DNA of 64,000 nt from Martinezella multihospitum. Its GTDB lineage: Bacteria > Pseudomonadota > Alphaproteobacteria > Rhizobiales > Rhizobiaceae. The notes beneath the pieces were generated by a model. The model was not told the DNA's origin, did not search any database, and saw nothing but the letters and a program-made list of their open reading frames with translations. A program made the translations under genes and the position numbers. Below are positions 32,470-43,910 of this stretch, in pieces (within the stretch, counting starts at the first letter, position 1; every line of letters begins with the position of its first letter). Location: the NCBI RefSeq assembly GCF_900094585.1, contig NZ_FMAG01000004.1, positions 372,001-436,000 on the forward strand, read 5' to 3'.

Positions 32470-33423
32470 CTATTTGAGCGAAATAGTGCCCGAAGCGACA
32501 TCCGGAAGGGCTGGTATGATCCCGCTCTTGGCGTACCATTCGGCCACTTTGGCGATCTGTTCGATGTCGGCTTTGGAGACCGCTGTGGTCGGTACGGCAT
32601 TGTTCTCGCCAATTTTCTTCGCGAGATCGGCCGGCACATTCATTTCCTTGACCCAGATTGCTCCCGCTTCGGTCTTGTTGGCGACGGCCCAGGAGTTTTC
32701 CGACTTGATCACATCGAAAACGAGTTGCAGTTGGTCAGGCTTGGATTGGGCGAACGCCTTGCTCGCGACCAGGACGACGGCATTGTCCGAACGGATAGCG
32801 GCGCCATCGGCGACGACCTTGCCGTCATAGGCTTTCTCGGCGATCGTCAGGAACGGGTCCCAGGTGGCCCAGGCGTCGACATGACCTTGCGTGAAGCTCG
32901 GGCCGCTGTCGCTCGGGCTCAGATAGACACGCTCCACGCTCCTCGGGTCGACGCCGTTGGTCGCGAGGCCCTGCATGAGCAGATATTCGCCCGTGCCGCC
33001 GCGATTGACGGCAACTTTCTTGCCGGCAAGGTCTTTGATGGAGCTGATATTGGAATCCTTCTTGACGACGATGCCTTCCGAACCTGCGGCCATCTTCTGA
33101 TAGGCGAAGACGACGAGCGGAACTTTGGCCGCGAGTGCCGTGATCGCCGATGTCGAGCTGCCGGCGGTGATGTCTATGCTGCCGGCGTTCAGGGCTTCGA
33201 AGGCGGGGGCTGCCGCAGGAAAGGGACCGGCCCATTCCACCTTGATGCCTTTTTCGGCGAGTGCTTTTTCAAGCGTGCCACGTGATTTGGTGAGCGTGAT
33301 GTCATTCGGCCCGCGTAGCCAGCCGATGCGCACCACCTGATCCGCGGCATGGGCAGCGGGCGCGAGGTTCGCGATACCGGCTATCGCTGCCATGGCGATG
33401 AAGAATTGACGTTTCGTGATCAT
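32470..33423 (-). CDS. ssuA: Aliphatic sulfonate ABC importer binding protein
   Basis: The periplasmic binding protein of 317 residues has a Sec signal ending in APAAHA. The mature part (VVRIGWLRGPNDITLTKSRGTLEKAL, SIDITAGSSTSAITALAA, GHVDAWATWDPFLTIAEK) matches the SsuA/TauA group, which bind alkanesulfonates. ATG 33423 has AGGA just upstream. Unusually it is the last gene of its operon, after ssuD, ssuC and ssuB. It is convergent with the SDR gene. Confidence 0.88.
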   Translation of the reverse strand: MITKRQFFIAMAAIAGIANLAPAAHAADQVVRIGWLRGPNDITLTKSRGTLEKALAEKGIKVEWAGPFPAAAPAFEALNAGSIDITAGSSTSAITALAAKVPLVVFAYQKMAAGSEGIVVKKDSNISSIKDLAGKKVAVNRGGTGEYLLMQGLATNGVDPRSVERVYLSPSDSGPSFTQGHVDAWATWDPFLTIAEKAYDGKVVADGAAIRSDNAVVLVASKAFAQSKPDQLQLVFDVIKSENSWAVANKTEAGAIWVKEMNVPADLAKKIGENNAVPTTAVSKADIEQIAKVAEWYAKSGIIPALPDVASGTISLK

Positions 33424-33469
33424 TTTCCTGTTCCGATCTGCCGGGATGGCGTGCTTGGTAGCGATAATG

Positions 33470-34174
33470 TCAGGCATGCGAGGGTTCGACGCCGAGTTCG
33501 GTCAAAAGCTCGGCTTCGATGCGGCTTGCTTCCGGGCTGCTGCGGCGACGGGGATGATCGAGGTGGACAACGATCTCCCTGGTGAAACGGCCGTTTTCGA
33601 GCACGAGAATGCGATCGGCGAGCGTGATGGCCTCGCCGATGTCGTGGGTGACGAGCAGGACAGCAGGCCTGTGTTTCCGCCAGAGATCGAACACCAGCCC
33701 GTGCATGCGCAGGCGCGTCAACGCATCGAGAGCGGCAAAGGGCTCGTCGAGCAGCAGGAGTTCGGGCTCGCGCACGAGCGCACGGGCGAGAGCCGCACGC
33801 TGCGCCTCGCCGCCGGAAAGGGTGAGGGGCCAGGCACTTTGTCGATGCGAAAGGCCGACATCCTCAAGCACCTGCACGGTAATGGAGCGCGCATCCTGCC
33901 GCTTGACGCCGAGTGTGACGTTGTCGATCACGGTCTTCCATGGCATCAGCCTCGGTTCCTGAAACACGACGGAGCGCCGTTGGGGAAGTTGCAATCGTCG
34001 GGCCGGCGCAGCATCGAGGCCGGCAAGCACGCGCAGAAGCGTGGACTTGCCGGAACCGCTGCGGCCGAGCAGGGCGACGAATTCGCCCTTGGCAATCGTC
34101 AGATCGATGTCGTTGAGGATTGCGGGACCGCCGAAGGAACGGGTGAGGCCACGAATATCGACGGGCGGCGTCAT
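33470..34174 (-). CDS. ssuB: Aliphatic sulfonate ABC importer ATP-binding protein
   Basis: The compact ATPase of 234 residues has Walker A GRSGSGKSTLLRVL, Q-loop FQEPRLMPWKTV (the MPW is typical of SsuB/TauB/NrtD), signature LSGGEAQRAALARAL and Walker B LLLDEPFAALDAL. The GEAQR variant is also characteristic of SsuB. It overlaps ssuC by ATGA (34171-34174). Confidence 0.93.
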   Translation of the reverse strand: MTPPVDIRGLTRSFGGPAILNDIDLTIAKGEFVALLGRSGSGKSTLLRVLAGLDAAPARRLQLPQRRSVVFQEPRLMPWKTVIDNVTLGVKRQDARSITVQVLEDVGLSHRQSAWPLTLSGGEAQRAALARALVREPELLLLDEPFAALDALTRLRMHGLVFDLWRKHRPAVLLVTHDIGEAITLADRILVLENGRFTREIVVHLDHPRRRSSPEASRIEAELLTELGVEPSHA

Positions 34175-35007
34175 GCGATCACCTCCGGGCGCCAGCGCAG
34201 CGCATAGGCTTCGAGCAGCCGCACCAGACCGTCCGTCAGCAGTCCCATGATGGCGTAGACCATGAGGCAGACCACGATGACATCCGTCTGCAGGAAATCG
34301 CGGGCATAGGTGATGATGTAGCCGATGCCGCTGGACGCATTGATCTGTTCGCCGACCACGAGGCTGAGCCAGGCAACGCCGAGGCCGTATCGAACACCGA
34401 CCAGAAGGGAGGGCAGTGCGCCGGGGATGATGATGTGGCGGATGATGCCTGCTGTATCGAGGCCAAGTGTTCGGCCGGCTTCCACGAGTTTTCTGTCAAT
34501 GCCGCGAATACCGCCATGGAGTGTCAGATAGATCGGGAAAACCGTTCCGAACGCAACAAGGCCGACCTTCGGCGCTTCGCCAATCCCGAACCACAGGATG
34601 AAGAGAGGCAAGAGACCGAGAAAGGGCATGGCCTTCAGCATCTGAAGCGGCGGATCGATGGCGGATTCTCCGAGCCGGGAAAGACCCGCTGCAAGCGCCA
34701 GCGCGACGCCGACGACAAAGGCGATCGAGAAGCCGAACAGGACACGCAGGAAGGACACGGCAAGGCCCGTGATGAGCTCGCCCGACATGATCAATCGATC
34801 CGCTGCACCAAGGATTTCGCCGGGCGAGGCAAGAATGCGCGGCGACAGAACTCCCGTCATGCTGGCGATCTGCCAGGCTATGATGATTGCGACCGGCGAG
34901 ACGAGACGGACCGCAAATCGCGCTAGTCTTTTGCCTGCCGGTCTCTGTGACGGCGAACTGCCGATATCGCCGGGGACGTTTCGATCCATGGTCGAAATTT
35001 CAGCCAT
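34171..35007 (-). CDS. ssuC: Aliphatic sulfonate ABC importer permease
   Basis: This inner-membrane permease of about 278 residues has six likely helices and the SsuC/TauC-type loop KLVEAGRTLGLDTAGIIRHIIIPGALPSLLVGVRYG. It continues with VVGEQINASSGIGYIITYARDFLQ, typical of the sulfonate/nitrate group. ATG 35007 overlaps the ssuD stop by 8 bp and has GGTGGA upstream; a TTG at 35025 is the alternative. Confidence 0.92.
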   Translation of the reverse strand: MAEISTMDRNVPGDIGSSPSQRPAGKRLARFAVRLVSPVAIIIAWQIASMTGVLSPRILASPGEILGAADRLIMSGELITGLAVSFLRVLFGFSIAFVVGVALALAAGLSRLGESAIDPPLQMLKAMPFLGLLPLFILWFGIGEAPKVGLVAFGTVFPIYLTLHGGIRGIDRKLVEAGRTLGLDTAGIIRHIIIPGALPSLLVGVRYGLGVAWLSLVVGEQINASSGIGYIITYARDFLQTDVIVVCLMVYAIMGLLTDGLVRLLEAYALRWRPEVIA

Positions 35008-36133
35008 GTGCGGGCTTTCCACCAAGATCGCGATCGAACAGCGTCGACCAGGTGAAGTGCCTGCGTTCCGGTGCAGCGCGCTCGACGGGCAGCCGCGGCA
35101 AAACGAGTTCGCCGAAGCGATAGGCTTCTTCCAGGAGCGGCATGCCGGACAGGATGAACGTGTCGACTCCGACCTTCTGATAGGCCTCCAGCGTGCGGAT
35201 TACCGTGTCCGGCGAGCCGACAATGGCGGTACCCGGCCCAGGTCGTACGAGGCCGATCCCGGCCCATAGATTGGGGGAGATCTCAAGATCGCGCAGGTTG
35301 GCAGGCTTGATGCCGCCATGCATTGCGCTCATCCTTTGCTGGCCGACGGAATCCGTATTGGAAACGAAGCGCTGGTTGGCCGCGATCGCGGCGTCATCCA
35401 TTTGCTCGTAGAGGTCCGCAGCCGCTTCCCAGGCTTTTTCGTCCGTCTGCCGGACGATGACGTAGAGCCGGATGCCGTAGCTCAGCGACCGGCCGTGCGC
35501 CTCGGCGCGAAGCTTCACCTTGGCAACCTTGTCACCCATCTGTTCCGGGGTTTCTCCCCAGGAGAGGTAGGTCTCGACATGCTTGGCAGCGACTTCGATC
35601 GCGCTGTCGGATGAACCGCCAAACCAGAGCGGAGGCGGCTTTATAGCCGATCCGGCCGGAAGCGCGAGCTTTGCGCCTTCGGTCTGGAAATATTTGCCCT
35701 TATGCGTAACGCTTTCTCCAGCCATCAGCCGATGGAAGATCGTCAGATATTCGTCCGCCATCTGATAACGCTCGTCATGCGGCAGCATCATGCCATAGGC
35801 GCCGAGCATCTTGGCATCCCCGGAGACGACGTTCAGCATCAGCCGACCGTTGGAGAACTCCTGGAAGGTCGCAGCCATTTTCGCCAGCAGCGTCGGCGCG
35901 ATGAGCCCCGGATGGAATGCGATGAGGAATTTCATCCGCTCCGTATAGGGAAGGAGCGCGCCGGCAAGCGGCCAGACGTCATGGGCGCCGGTGGCAAACA
36001 ACGCGCCGGTGAAGCCGAGGTGATCATAGGCTTGCGCGAGCTGCTTGTAATAGCCGTAGTCGATGGTGCGCGATCCCTCGGCTTTCCACGGATAGGCGCC
36101 GTCCGGAGCGCACATGTACCAGAGTACGTTCAT
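35000..36133 (-). CDS. ssuD: FMNH2-dependent alkanesulfonate monooxygenase
   Basis: The luciferase-fold enzyme of 377 residues cleaves alkanesulfonates to aldehyde and sulfite using reduced FMN and oxygen. It shows the SsuD-like segments LIAFHPGLIAPTLLAKMAATFQEFSNGRLMLNVVSGD, PPLWFGGSSDSAIEVAAKHVETYLSWGE and TAIVGSPDTVIRTLEAYQKVGVDTFILSGMPLLEEAYRFGE. ATG 36133 follows the upstream gene's stop by one base. A flavin reductase partner (SsuE) is not present in the window. Confidence 0.92.
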   Translation of the reverse strand: MNVLWYMCAPDGAYPWKAEGSRTIDYGYYKQLAQAYDHLGFTGALFATGAHDVWPLAGALLPYTERMKFLIAFHPGLIAPTLLAKMAATFQEFSNGRLMLNVVSGDAKMLGAYGMMLPHDERYQMADEYLTIFHRLMAGESVTHKGKYFQTEGAKLALPAGSAIKPPPLWFGGSSDSAIEVAAKHVETYLSWGETPEQMGDKVAKVKLRAEAHGRSLSYGIRLYVIVRQTDEKAWEAAADLYEQMDDAAIAANQRFVSNTDSVGQQRMSAMHGGIKPANLRDLEISPNLWAGIGLVRPGPGTAIVGSPDTVIRTLEAYQKVGVDTFILSGMPLLEEAYRFGELVLPRLPVERAAPERRHFTWSTLFDRDLGGKPAHG

Positions 36134-36134
36134 T

Positions 36135-36983
36135 TCAGATCTCTTTGTCGCTTGTCGTCTCAATTGTCAGTCTGGCCAGCAGATCGCCATGCTCGAAAAG
36201 TGTGTCGGCTTCCGCTTGCTGCTCGCGGAGAAGTCTGGCGTCGACGGCACCCGCCTGCCAGTTCCGGCCCGAAACGACGCGCGTCCAGGCCCGCCGGTCC
36301 GTTTCGTCTCCATCTTTCGAAAGGAGGGAGGCCGCCTTTTCCGGGTCGGCTGTTATCTCCTTGCCGAGGCGTTCCAGCTCAGCGGCAAAATCGATCGCTA
36401 CCCCCCTGGAGAGGCTTCGCTCATGGATGGTCCAGAACAGGGAGCGGTTCGGAATAAGATCGCCGCAATGGGCAAGCACGCGGAACTCGCCGCTGAGCAA
36501 AGACTGTTCGAGATGCGGCGCCATGGCAATCCAGGCGGCAACCGCCCCGTCCTTCAGCGCGTCACGCGATGGCCCGGGCGCCATGTCCCGGCGCCGGATG
36601 TCGGCCAGGGTCAAGTCGGATTCTTCGAGCTGTTTGGCAAGGAAATAAGTGAGAAAGGAACCGTCGACCAGTGCGATGGCTTCCCCCTTGAGATCGGCAA
36701 TGCTTTCGATGTCGGAGGTTTTTCTGACCAGGATGGCGCCATTGGCCGGGCGGGGTGCCGATGCTGCGACATAGGAAACAGAAAGCCCCGATGCTGCGGC
36801 GAGGATGGGTGGGGTAGAGCCCGTTCCACCGATATCGAATTCGCCGCGAACAAGCTTTTCCGCTGTGTCGCGCCCTTCATGATAGAGGACGAATTCCGGG
36901 TTCATCGTGGCAAATGCCCCCGGCCAGAGGGATGCCAGATGAAGGTGCAGATTGTTCGGATGGTGGCCAATCCTGAAAGCCAA
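36135..36983 (-). CDS. SsuA-like binding protein without a signal peptide
   Basis: The 282-residue protein of the NMT1/SsuA-type fold has GEFDIGGTGSTPPILAAASGLSV, PRPANGAILVRKTSDIESIADLKGEAIAL, RRRDMAPGPSRDALKDGAVAAWIAMAPHLEQ and TRVVSGRNWQAGAVD. It begins directly with the mature fold (MAFRIGHHPNNLHLHLA) and has no hydrophobic signal. It starts from TTG 36983 with GAGGGA 6 nt upstream, and no longer start exists because the promoter palindrome lies just ahead. It is first in the ssu operon. It may work in the cytosol as a sensor or substrate carrier, or have lost export. Confidence 0.75.
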   Translation of the reverse strand: MAFRIGHHPNNLHLHLASLWPGAFATMNPEFVLYHEGRDTAEKLVRGEFDIGGTGSTPPILAAASGLSVSYVAASAPRPANGAILVRKTSDIESIADLKGEAIALVDGSFLTYFLAKQLEESDLTLADIRRRDMAPGPSRDALKDGAVAAWIAMAPHLEQSLLSGEFRVLAHCGDLIPNRSLFWTIHERSLSRGVAIDFAAELERLGKEITADPEKAASLLSKDGDETDRRAWTRVVSGRNWQAGAVDARLLREQQAEADTLFEHGDLLARLTIETTSDKEI

Positions 36984-37006
36984 GAGATTTCCCTCGTTGC
37001 CAATTG

Positions 37007-37024
37007 TTATATAAATTTATATAA
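37007..37024. promoter_or_regulatory. Perfect 18-bp palindrome, likely ArsR-family operator
   Basis: TTATATAAATTTATATAA is self-complementary over all 18 bases. It lies between the divergent ssu operon (start 36983) and the ArsR-type gene. AT-rich palindromes of this kind are bound by BigR/SqrR-type ArsR regulators. It runs into the first possible ATG of the regulator gene, implying the real start is downstream. Confidence 0.75.
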
Positions 37025-37038
37025 TGAGTAGAGAATTG

Positions 37039-37512
37039 ATGGCGAGAAATTCGACGCTGAAAATTTCGCGAGAAAGAGAAAACTATTCCCGTCAAATGCA
37101 GGGTCCGAAACAGATGACCAAGACTGAAGACGACAAAAGCCGCCAGCGCAGACCGCATGAGCCGAAGGTCAAATGTCGTGCGATCGGTGCGGCTTCGGAT
37201 TTCATGAAAGCCATGGCAAACCCGGTTCGGCTGGCGATCTTGTGCGTGCTCATGGAGGGCACAAGGACGGTGAGTGAACTGGAGGAGATTCTCGACGTCC
37301 ATCAGCCGACGCTTTCACAGCAGATCGGGGAGTTGCGAGACGCCGGCATCATTGTCGGAAGGCGCGTAGCGAAGGCCGTGGTCTATCGTCTGGCCGATCC
37401 TCGCGCGGGCCAGCTCATCGCTCATTTGCGATTGCTGTTTGCCGATTCCGAGGCCTCCGCCATATGGCGTGGAGCTCAATTTGAATCTGGCGCTACGGCA
37501 GAGATGGCTTAG
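37039..37512 (+). CDS. ArsR-family regulator, BigR/SqrR-like
   Basis: The winged-helix repressor has about 157 residues. The core AASDFMKAMANPVRLAILCVLMEGTRTVSELEEIL, the recognition helix HQPTLSQQIGELRDAGII and the wing VGRRVAKAVVYRLAD resemble BigR/SqrR/YgaV regulators, which sense sulfide or persulfide through two cysteines. The first cysteine is present (AILC). The second, expected near the C-terminal helix (LFC), is alanine (LLFAD), and an extra cysteine lies in the N-terminal tail (KVKCRA). The N-terminal tail is longer than usual. The start is uncertain: ATGs at 37024, 37039, 37096 and 37114 are all possible. Confidence 0.82.
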   Translation: MARNSTLKISRERENYSRQMQGPKQMTKTEDDKSRQRRPHEPKVKCRAIGAASDFMKAMANPVRLAILCVLMEGTRTVSELEEILDVHQPTLSQQIGELRDAGIIVGRRVAKAVVYRLADPRAGQLIAHLRLLFADSEASAIWRGAQFESGATAEMA

Positions 37513-37572
37513 GGGCGGCGGTCTCGGTCGAGAGGAAATCCGGACAAGCCTCTCCGATCTAGATATGCATCG

Positions 37573-38664
37573 TCACGCGGTCGGCGACCAGCCAAGGCTC
37601 GGGGCCACCGTCTGGGCGAGATCGGTCAGCAGCCTCACATTCTCCGCAAGACCGAAAGCGGGCGGCAGGAAGAGGACAATCTCGTCGGCCGCCGCCAGGC
37701 CGGGGTCCTTCAGCACCGCCTCGATCACTTGGTCGGGGGTGCCGTGGAAGACTGGAGAAATCTGGATGCCTGGAGGCTGAATGGCCGGCGCGGTTGGTTC
37801 GAGGGCGCCGCTGGGGCGGGAGGCTCCGATCCCTTTGGTTCGGCGCTCGAGGTCGTAAGCGGCGTATTTCTCCCGCAATTCGGTGGTGGTGCCGACCAGG
37901 ATCGATGCTGCGACCGTGACGGGCGGCGGCTCGGTGCCCTGCTTCTGGCGCCATGTCGTGCGGAAAGCGTCGATGGCGCGTGCCTGATACTCCCCGAAGG
38001 TTTCGCCTTCGGCGTGGTCGTGCTGTACGGTTCCCGAGATGAGCCCGATCCCGAGCTCGGCAGCCTGCACAGCCGAGCGCAGGCTTGCCGAACCCTGCCG
38101 GATACGGGACCGTAGCGTCGGGCTGTGCGGCGTCACACGCAGCTCTGTGCCTTCCGGAGCACCCTGGCCCGGACCACCGACAGTATGGAGAACCTCACCG
38201 GCGATTGCCGCCAGAAAACGCGCCTGGCGGCGTCTTGCCTCCGTGCGGACATCGGTATCGACCGAACCGAATACCGCATCGAAAGCTGCGTTGGCGCCCG
38301 TGGAGATGGCAAGCTCGAGCCTTTCGCCGATGAGGAGGTCGGCGGTGCCGGCCGCTTCGGCAAGCAGGATCGGGTCCTGGTAACGCATCGGGATGACGGC
38401 CGAACCTAGCGTGATGTGACTTGTATGTTGGCCGGCGGCAGCGAAGAACGGGATCGGAGAGGACAAGTAGTGATCGAAGTGGCGCTGATAGGCCCAGCCC
38501 GACTGATATCCCAGCCGCTCGGCCGCCTTGAACAGTTCTATCCCGTCACGCAGTCCCTGCGCCGGGCCGGCCTCATCGTTGAACGACACCCGGGTGTTGA
38601 AACCGAGTCGCCGCTTGGGGCGGAACGTCGCGGGCAGGGTGCTCGCAGGCGCAGCGATACTCAT
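37573..38664 (-). CDS. Luciferase-like flavin-dependent monooxygenase (LLM class)
   Basis: The 363-residue bacterial-luciferase-fold oxidoreductase has RLGFNTRVSFNDEAGPAQGLRDGIELFKAAERLGYQSGWAYQRHFDHYLSSPIPFFAAAGQHT, LGSAVIPMRYQDPILLAEAAGTADLLIGERLELAIS and FHGTPDQVIEAVLKD. These enzymes use reduced FMN and oxygen on small or sulfur-containing substrates. It is the last gene of a peptide-type ABC operon (43910 to 37573), overlapping the dual ATPase gene by ATGA (38661-38664). It probably attacks the imported compound. Confidence 0.85.
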   Translation of the reverse strand: MSIAAPASTLPATFRPKRRLGFNTRVSFNDEAGPAQGLRDGIELFKAAERLGYQSGWAYQRHFDHYLSSPIPFFAAAGQHTSHITLGSAVIPMRYQDPILLAEAAGTADLLIGERLELAISTGANAAFDAVFGSVDTDVRTEARRRQARFLAAIAGEVLHTVGGPGQGAPEGTELRVTPHSPTLRSRIRQGSASLRSAVQAAELGIGLISGTVQHDHAEGETFGEYQARAIDAFRTTWRQKQGTEPPPVTVAASILVGTTTELREKYAAYDLERRTKGIGASRPSGALEPTAPAIQPPGIQISPVFHGTPDQVIEAVLKDPGLAAADEIVLFLPPAFGLAENVRLLTDLAQTVAPSLGWSPTA

Positions 38665-40385
38665 GCGATCTTTTCCTGGCTAATGATCCGGCGGAATTGC
38701 GGCGGGGGTACCCGGGAAGCGCCGGCGCTCGGGATCGATTCCAGCAGCGACACAGTGTACGGCTCACGGGGGGTGTCGAAAATGTCCTTGACGCTGCCGT
38801 GTTCGACAATACGCCCACGCTGCATCACCGAGACGGTATGGGCGAGCTGGCGCACGAGAGCCAGATCGTGGGAGACGAATATGTAGGTCAGGCCAAGGCT
38901 CGCCTGCAGTGAAAGCAATACTTCGACAATGTCGGCCTGGACACTGACGTCGAGCGCGGACGTCGGTTCATCGAGCACGATCACATCCGGTTTCAAAACC
39001 AGTGATCGGGCAATTGCAACGCGTTGACGCTGACCGCCCGACAAGGCTTGCGGCTTGCGTGAAAGCAGGTGCTCATCCAGCCCGACATTGGAGAGCGCTT
39101 CGCGGACCCGCTCCGTCCGTTCCGCATGAGTTCCGATGCCGAACCTGTCGAGCGGCTCACGCACCAGCTGCTCGACTTTCCAGGTCGGATCGAGCGACGT
39201 GAAAGGATTTTGATAGACGAGCTGAAGGTGGCGCCATACCGAACGTAGCGACTGGTGTGATCGGCCGTTCAGCTTTTCTCCGGTGACCGAAATAGTCCCG
39301 CTGTCCGGTTGGTCGAGTCCGAGCAGCAGCCGGATTGTCGTCGTCTTGCCTGAACCCGACTCTCCGACCAGCGCGTGCGTCGTTCCTGCAGGCACCGAGA
39401 ATGAAACGTCATCGACGGCCGTCAGGAGCTTGCCGTCGACCGTGAAGCTCTTGGTGATGCCGTTGACTTCGATCTTTGGTGCCTTGCCGGAGCCGACATC
39501 AAGCAAACGGAAGCCGGGATCTCGGAGCTTGTGGTATCGGTCGGGGTTGAGGGCCGGAACGTCCGCATGCAGCTCCTTTGCGTAGGTGGATGTTGGTGAC
39601 GCGAAGACGGCCGCGGTGCTGCCGGCTTCCTGAACGGCACCATTCTTGAGCACCACCAGAGAATTTGCCCGTTCGGCTGCGATCGCGAGATCGTGGGTGA
39701 TGAGCAGCAGACTGATGGAGAGATCCTGCTGCAACCGCGAGAGCAGGTCGAGAATTCGCTTCTGGATCGTGACGTCGAGCGCCGAGGTCGGCTCATCCGC
39801 CACCAGCAGCAGCGGCCGTGGTAGGACCGCAAGGCCGATCAGCACCCGTTGAAGCATGCCGCCGGACAGCTGGTGCGGGTAGGAATCATAGACGCGCTGT
39901 GGATTGTCGAGCCCGACTTGTGCAAACGTTTCAAGGACAAGTGCCTTGCGGATTGCCCTGCTTGGCTCGTCGATGAGTGCTGCTGCTTCCATTGCTTGCG
40001 CGCCGATTGTCCGCACCGGATTGAGTGCGTTTCCGGGGTCCTGCGGAACGAACCCGATGGCCCGCCCGCGCAGCTGGCGGAAGCGGCGCTCGGAGAGCTG
40101 CAATATGTCCTGACCCTCGAATGCGATGCGGCCTGTTGCTTGCCCCGTGCGAGGGAGCAACCGCAGCACTGCCCGAGCGATGGTCGACTTGCCCGAGCCC
40201 GATTCTCCGATCAGCGCGAGGCTCTTGCCGCGACCCAGTTCGAACCCGACATTGCCAACGACCTCGGTCGGCCCGTAGGAGATAGACAGGCCGTCGATCT
40301 GAAGCAGTGGTGTTGACCGCTGCGGCAGCAGCGCGTTTTCACCGACATGAATGTGTGCTGCGTTTAGTCTATTTTGCGAAGCCAT
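38661..40385 (-). CDS. Peptide/nickel-type ABC transporter, fused dual ATP-binding protein
   Basis: The 574-residue fusion has two complete ATPases of the DppD and DppF kinds. The N half has GESGSGKSTIARAVLRLL and QLSGGMLQRVLIGLAVLPRPLLLVADEPTSALD. The C half has [50 protein letters not shown] and the typical AHTVSVMQRGRIVEHG. Such fusions (YejF/GsiA-like) power importers for peptides, glutathione or opines. It overlaps the end of the upstream permease gene by 22 bp. Confidence 0.92.
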   Translation of the reverse strand: MASQNRLNAAHIHVGENALLPQRSTPLLQIDGLSISYGPTEVVGNVGFELGRGKSLALIGESGSGKSTIARAVLRLLPRTGQATGRIAFEGQDILQLSERRFRQLRGRAIGFVPQDPGNALNPVRTIGAQAMEAAALIDEPSRAIRKALVLETFAQVGLDNPQRVYDSYPHQLSGGMLQRVLIGLAVLPRPLLLVADEPTSALDVTIQKRILDLLSRLQQDLSISLLLITHDLAIAAERANSLVVLKNGAVQEAGSTAAVFASPTSTYAKELHADVPALNPDRYHKLRDPGFRLLDVGSGKAPKIEVNGITKSFTVDGKLLTAVDDVSFSVPAGTTHALVGESGSGKTTTIRLLLGLDQPDSGTISVTGEKLNGRSHQSLRSVWRHLQLVYQNPFTSLDPTWKVEQLVREPLDRFGIGTHAERTERVREALSNVGLDEHLLSRKPQALSGGQRQRVAIARSLVLKPDVIVLDEPTSALDVSVQADIVEVLLSLQASLGLTYIFVSHDLALVRQLAHTVSVMQRGRIVEHGSVKDIFDTPREPYTVSLLESIPSAGASRVPPPQFRRIISQEKIA

Positions 40386-41212
40386 CGGCTGATCCTATTC
40401 ACAGAGAGGACGGTCGCGATCGTGATGAAGGCGGGCGCGTAGACCAGCCATGGCCATTTGAGGTAGTCCTTGCCGATCGAAATCAGCAAACCCCAATCGG
40501 ATGCCGGTGGCGGATCGCCGTAACCGAGGAAGGCGAGACTGGCGATTACCAGGATCGAGTCCCCGAACTGCAGCACGGCGAGCGGCAGCACGGAACGCGA
40601 TGCGTTCGGTAGCACATGCCGCCAAAGGATGTGCCAGCGCGAGCCCCCCGAAAGAAAAGAGGCCTCGATGAAGGTTGCCTGCCTGGTCTTGATGACCTCC
40701 GAGCGCATGACGCGGGCAAAGACGGCCACCGAGGAGATGCCCGTGGCGATGGCGGCGTTCGTGGTGTCGAAGCCGATGGCGGTGACGACGATGACGGCAA
40801 GCAGAAATTTCGGAACTGCAAGCAGGACGTCGACCAGGCGGGCGAGCACCGTGTCCACGCGGCCGCCAAAGAAACCGGCAAGCAGGCCGATGAGGCCGCC
40901 GGCGACGGCGCCGATGACGACGGCGATCAGCGCGCTCTTGACGGAGGAGGCCGAGCCATAGACGACGCGGGTGTAGAGATCGCGGCCCAGCTGGTCGGTA
41001 CCGAACCAGTGCCCGGCACTGGGGCCGAGCAGCTTTTGAGCGGGAATGCCGACTGCAGGGTTATGGCTCGTAAACAGGCCAGGCGCGAGCGACCAGGCGA
41101 TCACGATCGCTACGATCGCAAGCGAGAGTGCGACGGTCGCCGGCAATCGGAAACCGGCAAGTCGGCTGCCAACGGCAATGCGCGGGGAGGTGTTGGTGGA
41201 GACCAGGGTCAT
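40364..41212 (-). CDS. Peptide/nickel-type ABC transporter permease (DppC-like)
   Basis: The 282-residue inner-membrane permease has the DppC family's N-terminal extension and helix. It then shows HWFGTDQLGRDLYTRVVYGSASSVKSALIA, the hallmark TDxxGRD motif of this group. The coupling loop TFIEASFLSGGSRWHILWRHVLPNA follows. It overlaps the preceding permease by ATGA (41209-41212). Confidence 0.93.
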   Translation of the reverse strand: MTLVSTNTSPRIAVGSRLAGFRLPATVALSLAIVAIVIAWSLAPGLFTSHNPAVGIPAQKLLGPSAGHWFGTDQLGRDLYTRVVYGSASSVKSALIAVVIGAVAGGLIGLLAGFFGGRVDTVLARLVDVLLAVPKFLLAVIVVTAIGFDTTNAAIATGISSVAVFARVMRSEVIKTRQATFIEASFLSGGSRWHILWRHVLPNASRSVLPLAVLQFGDSILVIASLAFLGYGDPPPASDWGLLISIGKDYLKWPWLVYAPAFITIATVLSVNRISRWLRKID

Positions 41213-42219
41213 GATAGCACCGACTTGGAAATGCCGCTGGAGCCCTCGTCCGAGGCGACTGGGCGGCGCTCTGCATCACCAAGCAGTTTTACGCGCGGGT
41301 CGAGCAGCGGATAGACAAGATCGGCGACGAGATTGACCAGCACGAATACCACCGCTGCGAGTGACACGATGGCTTGCAGGACGGGCAGATCCTGGGTGCT
41401 GACTGAACGCTGGACCAGGCTGCCGACGCCGGTGCGCCCGAACACCGCTTCGGTGATGAGCGAGCCGCCGAGCAGCTCGCCGATCGTCAGAGCGACGACG
41501 GTAATGACGGGAAGCGACGACGGTTTGAGCAGGTGCCTGACAAACAAACGCATCTGTCCGAGGCCGCGGCTGCGCGCGACGGCAGCGTATTCCTGCCCCG
41601 ACTCGTGATCGAGGTTGGCGATAAGCACCTCGGCGATCTGTGCTGATATCGGAATACCGAGCGCGACCGCTGCGAAAAAAGTTGCCCAGAAGCTATCGGG
41701 GTTAATCACGCGGAAGAGGCCGAGCTGGAAACCGAAGATGTGGATCAGCACGAGGCCAATTACGAAATTCGGCACCGACAGGAACAAGGAGGGGAAGCCC
41801 CGCAGCAAGCCCTGGCCGAACCTTTTTGGCAGGAACTGAGTGCCGTAGGAAATCAAGATTGCCAAAAGCAACGCGACGACGAGACCCGCAAAGGCGAGAA
41901 CCAGCGTCGAGGGCAGCACCTCGGCGATCATGGTGGTCACGGGCCGGTTGGTCCGCATCGACATGCCGAAGTCACCGATGAGGAAATGAGACAGGGATGT
42001 CGACAATTGCACGAGAACCGGCTTGTCCAGCCCCTGGGCGGCGATGATTTCCTGGATCTCCGCCTCGCTGAAACCGTTTTGCGGGTTGCGCAGAACGTTG
42101 GTAATCGGGTCGCCCGGCAGGATGCTGACGACGATGAAGGTGAAGACGTAGGTCAGCAGGATGACGACGACGGCCTGCAGGAGGCGTTTTGTGGCGTAGC
42201 TCAGATAGGCATTGTTCAT
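41209..42219 (-). CDS. Peptide/nickel-type ABC transporter permease (DppB-like)
   Basis: The 336-residue permease begins YATKRLLQAVVVILLTYVFTFIVVSILPGDP, the DppB family opening. It contains SVPNFVIGLVLIHIF and the coupling loop YAAVARSRGLGQMRLFVRHLLKPSSLPVITVVALTIGELLGGSLITEAVF. ATG 42219 is preferred over GTG 42228 because GAGG lies 8 nt before it. It follows the binding-protein gene by 38 bp. Confidence 0.92.
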   Translation of the reverse strand: MNNAYLSYATKRLLQAVVVILLTYVFTFIVVSILPGDPITNVLRNPQNGFSEAEIQEIIAAQGLDKPVLVQLSTSLSHFLIGDFGMSMRTNRPVTTMIAEVLPSTLVLAFAGLVVALLLAILISYGTQFLPKRFGQGLLRGFPSLFLSVPNFVIGLVLIHIFGFQLGLFRVINPDSFWATFFAAVALGIPISAQIAEVLIANLDHESGQEYAAVARSRGLGQMRLFVRHLLKPSSLPVITVVALTIGELLGGSLITEAVFGRTGVGSLVQRSVSTQDLPVLQAIVSLAAVVFVLVNLVADLVYPLLDPRVKLLGDAERRPVASDEGSSGISKSVLS

Positions 42220-42257
42220 GCCGGTCACCTCGTCACGTTTCTCGGTTGCACGGCGCG

Positions 42258-43910
42258 TTACTCGCTTATCGAGGCTGTATAGTAATTGGCGTAGGCGACG
42301 CCGTTGTAGGTCTCGCCCTTGAGCTTCGGAGACTGGACATAGATGCGCTGGACCATCTGTGTGCGCGGAATGAAGTAGCCCTGCTCGAGGACATATTTCT
42401 GAAGCTCGTCCAGCAGCGGGTTTCTGATCTCGAGAGAACCGGCACCGGCAATCTTATCGCGCAAATCGTTGATCTTCTTGTCGCTCTCTCCGAGTGCGAA
42501 CCAGTTCTCGCCGTTATTGGCGTCGGTGAGGATGCTGGCGACGGTACCGGCGTCGATGAAGCTGCGCGTCACCTCGTAGGCCGGCACGCCGGCGCCGCCG
42601 TACTGAACCTTCTGGCCGTACGTCACGACGTCGTAGGCCCGGATGTCGACCTTCCAGCCGATCTTGCCGAGCTGCTGAGCGATGAGTTCGTCGATCGACT
42701 TCGAGGTTACGAGATAGGGGTTGGAGTTGAGCGTCAACGACAGTTGCTTGCCGTCTTTGGCGCGTATGCCGTCGGCCCCCTTGATCCAGCCCGCTTCGTC
42801 GAGGAGTTTCTCGGCCCTGTCGGGATTATAGGCCAAAAGGTCGCTGTGATCGGTCGCGCCGGGCACGTTGCTCTGGATGAATGAGGTCGCGAGCTTCCAG
42901 TCTGGCGTGTAGACGGTATCGATGATTTCCTGACGGTTGACGCCGGCCTGCAGGGCTTGGCGCACCTTGACATCGTCGTAGGGCGCCAGCTTGGTGTTGA
43001 TCGCCCAGCCGTTCACGAATCCGAGATAACGCGGCGTCGCGACGGTAAAGCCGTCCTGCTTGAGGGAGGTCAGTTCCTGCGGCGAGGCGTTATAGGCAAT
43101 GTCGGCCTGGCCGGACTGGACGGCGGCCACGCGCAATGACGGTTCGGACACCAGCTTGTAGGTGATCGTATCGAGATAGGCCGGACCCGTATGACCAACG
43201 GCCGCTGGCCCCCAGTTGTAATCCTTGCGTTTGGTGAGCTTGACGAAGTCGCCTTCCTTCCAGGAATCGACCACATAAGGTCCGCTGCCGGAGGTCTTGC
43301 TGAGATCGGCCTGCTGCGCGGCCGGCTGTGCGATGGTCTTGGGGGAAATCAGGATCGAGCCGTGATAGCCAAGAGTTGGAATGAAGCCGAGCGTCGGCTT
43401 TTTGAAGAAGACCTTTACCGTGGTTGCGTCAACCGCCTCGGCGTGATCGTAAGTCTTCGGGAAGAGCCCAATCGGATTGATGCCCTCTTTCTTGCGTCCG
43501 GCATACCAGATGTCGAGATTGGTGACTGCGGCAGACGCATCAAGGGGGGTGCCATCAGAGAAGGTTACACCACTCTTGAGATGGAGGGTGAACTCCGTGG
43601 CATTGTCATTCTGCTCCCAACGCTCGGCGATCCACGGGCTGACTTTGCCGTCTGCGTCCACGTAAACGAGCTTGTCGGTTACGTGACCCCATATGTGACC
43701 CTGGAAACTGGAAATCGCACTGTTATTCGGTATCCAGGTGTCGCCCAATGAATCGATGAGGAAAGTGATGTCGCCGCCATTGGCTGAACCGTCGGCGCTA
43801 TAAGCTGGAGTGAGGCCCGCCATCGCCACCAAGGCACCGGTCGCCACGGCAGAAGTGGTAATCAGCAGACGGCGCCGGGAAAGGGACAGCGAAAAAAGGC
43901 GTTCGGTCAT
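42258..43910 (-). CDS. Peptide/nickel-type ABC importer binding protein (SBP_bac_5)
   Basis: The 550-residue periplasmic protein has a twin-arginine-type signal (SRRRLLITTSAVATGALVAMAG). Family segments follow: KSGVTFSDGTPLDASAAVTNLD, GSGPYVVDSWKEGDFVKLTKRKDYN, and NTKLAPYDDVKVRQALQAGVNRQEIIDTVY. Ligands of the family range from peptides to nickel, opines and thioethers. It is the first gene of a five-gene operon ending with a flavin monooxygenase. A shared 26-bp element lies 69 bp upstream (43979-44004). Confidence 0.92.
   Translation of the reverse strand: MTERLFSLSLSRRRLLITTSAVATGALVAMAGLTPAYSADGSANGGDITFLIDSLGDTWIPNNSAISSFQGHIWGHVTDKLVYVDADGKVSPWIAERWEQNDNATEFTLHLKSGVTFSDGTPLDASAAVTNLDIWYAGRKKEGINPIGLFPKTYDHAEAVDATTVKVFFKKPTLGFIPTLGYHGSILISPKTIAQPAAQQADLSKTSGSGPYVVDSWKEGDFVKLTKRKDYNWGPAAVGHTGPAYLDTITYKLVSEPSLRVAAVQSGQADIAYNASPQELTSLKQDGFTVATPRYLGFVNGWAINTKLAPYDDVKVRQALQAGVNRQEIIDTVYTPDWKLATSFIQSNVPGATDHSDLLAYNPDRAEKLLDEAGWIKGADGIRAKDGKQLSLTLNSNPYLVTSKSIDELIAQQLGKIGWKVDIRAYDVVTYGQKVQYGGAGVPAYEVTRSFIDAGTVASILTDANNGENWFALGESDKKINDLRDKIAGAGSLEIRNPLLDELQKYVLEQGYFIPRTQMVQRIYVQSPKLKGETYNGVAYANYYTASISE

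Follow-up and report, generated by a model that had tools for sequence, protein, structure and literature searches.

A conserved palindrome between an ssu-type sulfonate operon and a divergent ArsR-family gene in Rhizobiaceae: a probable shared operator

Sulfonates are a main source of sulfur in soil. The ssu operon of Escherichia coli is described as being under the control of two LysR-type activators, Cbl and CysB (PMC4501297). Sulfane-sulfur sensors of the ArsR family, the BigR/SqrR/SoxR/HlyU type, are the other closest described system; SqrR/BigR and SoxR are reported to release DNA on sulfide or sulfane sulfur (PMC9774250, PMC10451225, PMC5823870), and the persulfide-sensing group has been described by a pair of cysteines in alpha2 and alpha5 (PMC10509353). 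A description of ssu control by an ArsR protein was not found in the literature searched, as judged by titles and abstracts.

In the window, by which we mean the whole stretch of 64,000 nucleotides that was analysed, an ssu-type operon faces a divergent arsR gene across a palindrome. The sequence comparisons indicate that this palindrome is very probably the operator of both. We give a probability of about three in four to the reading in which it is the single operator of a local ArsR repressor that shuts off arsR and ssu. The locus has SsuA, B, C and D proteins homologous to those of E. coli. It differs from the E. coli system in the local ArsR that we infer here, acting instead of, or besides, LysR activators, in an additional SsuA-like protein, and in that no flavin reductase was found among the ssu operon genes scanned. 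With the BigR type it shares a winged-helix fold, an alpha2 cysteine, an AT-rich dyad and the arrangement of divergent or autoregulated sulfur genes. Unlike that type, the ssu-linked ArsR would control the uptake of sulfonates and not the oxidation of sulfide or sulfur.

The palindrome and its promoters

The features of the locus are collected in Table 1. For the four ssu proteins the Ssu families give the best or near-best match, and SsuA alone passes its cut-off. In the TTG frame of the SsuD-like protein the NF001939 match starts at residue 12. As read from the N-termini of 14 aligned proteins, which begin directly at the first strand, Sbp2 has no signal peptide; a structure model of it (mean pLDDT 56) was too poor to use. 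The ssu locus is adjoined by an operon for a luciferase-like monooxygenase (LLM) and a peptide-type ABC transporter (37573-43910, minus strand), possibly a second organosulfur system.

Table 1. Features of the ssu-arsR region, in window coordinates
Feature	Coordinates	Strand	Remarks
SsuA-like binding protein	32470..33477	-	TIGR01728, 182.5 bits (cut-off 163.5)
SsuB-like ATP-binding protein	33470..34174	-	best match SsuB-type, 248.7 bits (cut-off 395)
SsuC-like permease	34171..35025	-	best match SsuC, 259.7 bits (cut-off 347)
SsuD-like alkanesulfonate monooxygenase, internal ATG start	35000..36130	-	NF001939, 430.6 bits (cut-off 510)
sbp2, SsuA-like, TTG start	36135..36983	-	first gene of the ssu operon
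arsR promoter TTGCCA-N17-TATAAT	36997..37025	+	-35 at 36997-37002, -10 at 37020-37025; 11/12 consensus bases
Candidate ssu -10, TATAAC	37006..37011	-	seen by eye in the sequence; without a good -35 and not among the results of the promoter scan
18-bp perfect palindrome, proposed ArsR operator	37007..37024	.	perfect in 11/15 aligned loci, 97% mean column identity
Second conserved element GAGAAAACTATTCCC	37076..37090	+	between operator and arsR; may bind a different regulator
ArsR-family regulator, re-assigned start, 132 aa	37114..37512	+	

The palindrome TTATATAAATTTATATAA is a perfect 9+9 dyad, confirming the preliminary description, and 23 bases separate it from the TTG codon of the ssu operon (36981-36983), within one of the 24 bp given there. 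No perfect palindrome in the window is longer, and the sequence has no other match there at up to three mismatches. Across the window its length alone is weak evidence, since perfect palindromes of at least 18 bp also turned up in 23 of 60 sequences of 64 kb simulated with a Markov model; in the non-coding stretch of 130 bp that holds it, such a palindrome is rare (24 of 20,000 local simulations). As judged from the aligned sequences, it is conservation that raises the palindrome above chance.

The 7.3-Mb genome holds a single site at up to two mismatches. The next best, at C7:145444, has three and lies elsewhere, and at that level a reversed control pattern gives three matches per strand to the palindrome's two. 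A wider regulon with the same site was rejected, there being no second copy at up to two mismatches. Comparison with Rfam revealed no RNA element in 36500-37600 at E values up to 0.5, and no terminator was found in 36900-37250.

In a scan of 36900-37250 the arsR promoter was the only promoter-like site, with 0.4 expected from shuffled sequences. Its -35 TTG is present in all 15 aligned loci described below and its TATAAT in 12; the spacer, counted from the alignment, is 16 in three loci. The palindrome corresponds to the spacer and -10 of this promoter, an overlap that argues for an operator. The outer halves of the palindrome read TATAAT on the plus strand and TATAAC on the minus strand, and it could be argued that the symmetry is a mere by-product of two overlapping divergent -10 boxes, with no protein operator. 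This we consider unlikely: the central AAATTT is kept in 13 of the 15 loci though no -10 box requires it, and in one relative, L061, both halves are altered symmetrically with a worsened -10, the symmetric change being a single event.

The palindrome had also been placed over the first ATG of the regulator frame. It does touch that ATG (37024), which was rejected as the start of arsR because the frame that it opens is interrupted by stops ahead of the conserved core in 10 of the 15 loci and lacks codon-position bias. Substitution rates at the three positions are flat in 37027-37113 (0.30/0.34/0.33), compared with 0.09/0.13/0.36 in 37150-37176. The start is accordingly put some 90 bp downstream, at about 37114, and a transcript from the arsR promoter would begin downstream of ATG 37024.

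Conservation among the Rhizobiaceae

Scanned with the ArsR protein, the genome collection yielded 13 loci, labelled Rhizobium, Neorhizobium, Agrobacterium or Rhizobiales. Together with the window and L033, from another genome of the genus, they make up an aligned set of 15 in which ArsR, though not ssu, is present by construction. L031 and L032 repeat L051 and L055 and were left uncounted; L054 is absent from alignment A1 and included in A2. The order ssuA-ssuB-ssuC-ssuD-sbp2 opposite ArsR is kept in all 15. Mean column identity reaches 97% over the palindrome and 91% over the second conserved element, compared with 69% for the other non-coding columns.

Among 18 loci of the window's clade (not counting L107, since L061 and L107 are perhaps one organism) the palindrome is perfect in 12, present as a near variant in four and diverged in two. 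The twelfth perfect copy lies outside the aligned set, at L108 in genome G304, a sixteenth locus recovered by palindrome search that also has ArsR, sbp2 and ssuD. This persistence, and the excess of identity over the other non-coding columns, argue for an operator. So does L061, in which a symmetric pair of changes, accompanied by one unpaired change, keeps a 16-bp dyad while weakening the -10. Counted against it are the broken pairs in L059 (one) and in L055 and L033 (two each), and the divergence of L109 and L110, where there are related AT-rich sites.

The number of palindromes in the family is not by itself informative: at up to one mismatch the site occurs in 5 of 394 family genomes and the reversed control in 4 of 394, so that the count alone is not enriched. 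Of those five, the genome of the window and G304 have it at ssu; the remaining three are 1.3-1.5 Mb in size, and the matches L077, L079 and L080 have surroundings that, judged by eye, are unlike the ssu/ArsR locus.

A search from the other side of the locus, with sbp2 at E <= 1e-50, found the gene in 19 of 394 family genomes (12 of 109 genera). In broader sets of genomes it was found, at the same threshold, in one of 385 from the class, that of the window itself, and in three of 349 from the phylum, which all belong to this family. A divergent ArsR stands beside sbp2 in 17 of the 19, five in the window's clade and 12 in a sister clade. The conserved ssu order and this association both support the operator reading, as does the comparison as a whole the earlier claim of one operator between ssu and a divergent arsR, which is kept with the gene pair in many Rhizobiaceae. 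The arrangement had been called uncommon; no description of it was found among the titles and abstracts searched, but within the Rhizobiaceae ArsR is the usual neighbour of this type of operon. L111, a sbp2-ssuD locus where about 1.5 kb of surrounding sequence showed no ArsR and no operator could be recognised, counts against the reading; L116 ends 75 bp before the sbp2 gene, too early to judge.

The sister clade comprises 15 loci, 12 from the sbp2 search together with L034-L036. Its operator has diverged to a AATTTACTTTTTTATAAAAT-like form. By alignment the two types share TnTA-N8-TAnA in the same place, and these related AT-rich sites lend further support to an operator. With a strict pattern, eight of the 15 loci have two sites, one near each gene, six have one and L112 has none; several of those without two strict sites show, by eye, a weaker second copy.

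Adjacency in the window might suggest that ArsR belongs instead to the downstream LLM/peptide-transporter operon. This possibility can practically be discounted. That operon is kept at high identity in two of 13 relatives (L049, L060), compared with 13 of 13 for ssu, so that synteny contradicts the association; moreover, it is transcribed towards ArsR and cannot use the palindrome.

The regulator and its cysteines

PF01022 (44.5 bits, cut-off 22) and NF033788 (77.2 bits, cut-off 55) place the protein in the ArsR/SmtB superfamily. By sequence it is closest to BigR (3pqj, E 2.5e-19), and its predicted fold, from a model with a mean pLDDT of 70.7, also matches BigR best. Its score against the BigR equivalog NF040642 is 84.4 bits, well under the cut-off of 155. 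Since BigR is a repressor, this likeness, and a regulon of one site, favour the reading of the palindrome as an operator. The only cysteines are C21 and C44. The CXC motif of canonical ArsR sensors of metals or As(III) is absent from alpha3 (residues 53-60), and C44 aligns with the alpha2 cysteine of BigR.

A tree was built from 64 ArsR rows (60 of them different) and 87 columns; its deeper forks are uncertain. The rows include four identical pairs, three of which are one locus fetched twice, while the fourth is L061/L107; three of the 30 rows not linked to ssu represent a locus fetched twice. The 34 ssu-linked rows form one side of a branch (95/93), divided into 19 rows of the window's clade (99/95) and 15 of the sister clade (97/88). 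A cysteine before alpha1 is found in 34/34 ssu-linked rows and 0/30 others, and the alpha2 cysteine in 34/34 and 30/30. The alpha5 cysteine is present in 0/34 ssu-linked rows and 26/30 others. The ssu-linked protein, unlike the BigR/SqrR/SoxR/HlyU type, thus lacks the alpha5 cysteine and has an invariant N-terminal one instead. By its sequence it has a BigR-like frame yet falls outside the alpha2-alpha5 definition of persulfide sensors. As it lacks one of the two cysteines by which BigR/SqrR sensors are defined, sensing of sulfite or persulfide is no more than a possibility for it. Three members of the window's clade (L037, L047, L048) have an additional, separate ArsR with the alpha2-alpha5 pair.

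A second conserved element and a proposed mechanism

The core of the second element, GAGAAAACTATTC at 37076-37088, lies 62 bp from the centre of the palindrome in 13 of the 15 loci and 61 bp in two. The same genome has a similar sequence (G000:C6:12753-12767) ahead of a gene for a cystine-type ABC binding protein, whose best match (PRK11260, 214.5 bits) does not reach the cut-off of 312, and the sequence recurs, aligned, in 22 other loci of the genus (among L082-L105; L090 was excluded from the alignment, the motif having missed its frame). The footprint there is strong, about 100 bp before the operon; all 23 loci have GAGAAA, and 15 of the 23 match GAGAAAAATATTCGC exactly. When the genome was searched with GAGAAAANTATTC at up to one mismatch there were 19 matches compared with 10 for the reversed control; the three exact ones are at ssu, at the cystine-type operon and inside an ORF. 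By ORF picking nine of the 19 are intergenic, including one at the cystine-type operon, one before an NtaA/DmoA-like monooxygenase and one before a peptide-type binding protein; for the others of the nine no link to sulfur is evident. In the window GAGAAAANTATTC has one match at up to two mismatches, where 2.9 are expected. That the element marks the regulon of a wider sulfur regulator is only suggestive from these sequences.

That a second site is conserved suggests a further regulator besides ArsR, and it is counted against sole control by ArsR. It might even be that ArsR binds the palindrome and regulates only itself, control of ssu being left to an activator that acts at the second element; the strong, overlapped arsR promoter, the poor ssu -35 and the fixed distance of the element would fit this arrangement. 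It appears improbable to us, since the gene pair is kept across genera and eight of 15 sister-clade loci have a strict site before each gene.

The mechanism that we favour, control of both genes from the palindrome, builds on features read from the DNA: the site, its conservation and promoter overlap, the gene pair, the cysteine pattern and the re-assigned start. From these we infer ArsR binding and repression, the inducer with the direction of its effect, and the activator. An ArsR dimer on the palindrome would lie across the -10 and spacer of the arsR promoter on the plus strand and also the candidate ssu -10 on the minus strand, shutting off both promoters, and the ssu proteins would be made only once the dimer releases the DNA. 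Binding would probably be set by the two invariant cysteines, before alpha1 and in alpha2, reacting with sulfur species. The second element, upstream of ssu, would probably bind a wider sulfur-starvation activator and may provide the starvation signal.

Release by persulfide, as in the BigR type, where a polysulfide bridge frees the DNA, would turn a scavenging operon on when sulfur is plentiful, a point that is counted against the operator reading. Three explanations can be offered: a response of opposite direction at this locus, a signal that comes from sulfonate use itself, as substrate or product, or a further function of the operon. A broader proposal, which we offer tentatively, is that a subgroup of Rhizobiaceae ArsR proteins has its second sensor cysteine before alpha1 and not in alpha5. 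This subgroup would act as a sulfur-status switch reserved for an ssu operon whose products include a cytosolic SsuA-like protein. Regulator and operator would have diverged jointly into two types, and the operator of one type is often found in front of each of the two genes.

Local switching of ssu by ArsR would add a layer of control distinct from the LysR activators of E. coli, and a regulon of one operator makes it simple to test. The moved cysteine would offer a natural comparison with BigR and SqrR of what sets the sulfur species sensed by ArsR proteins.
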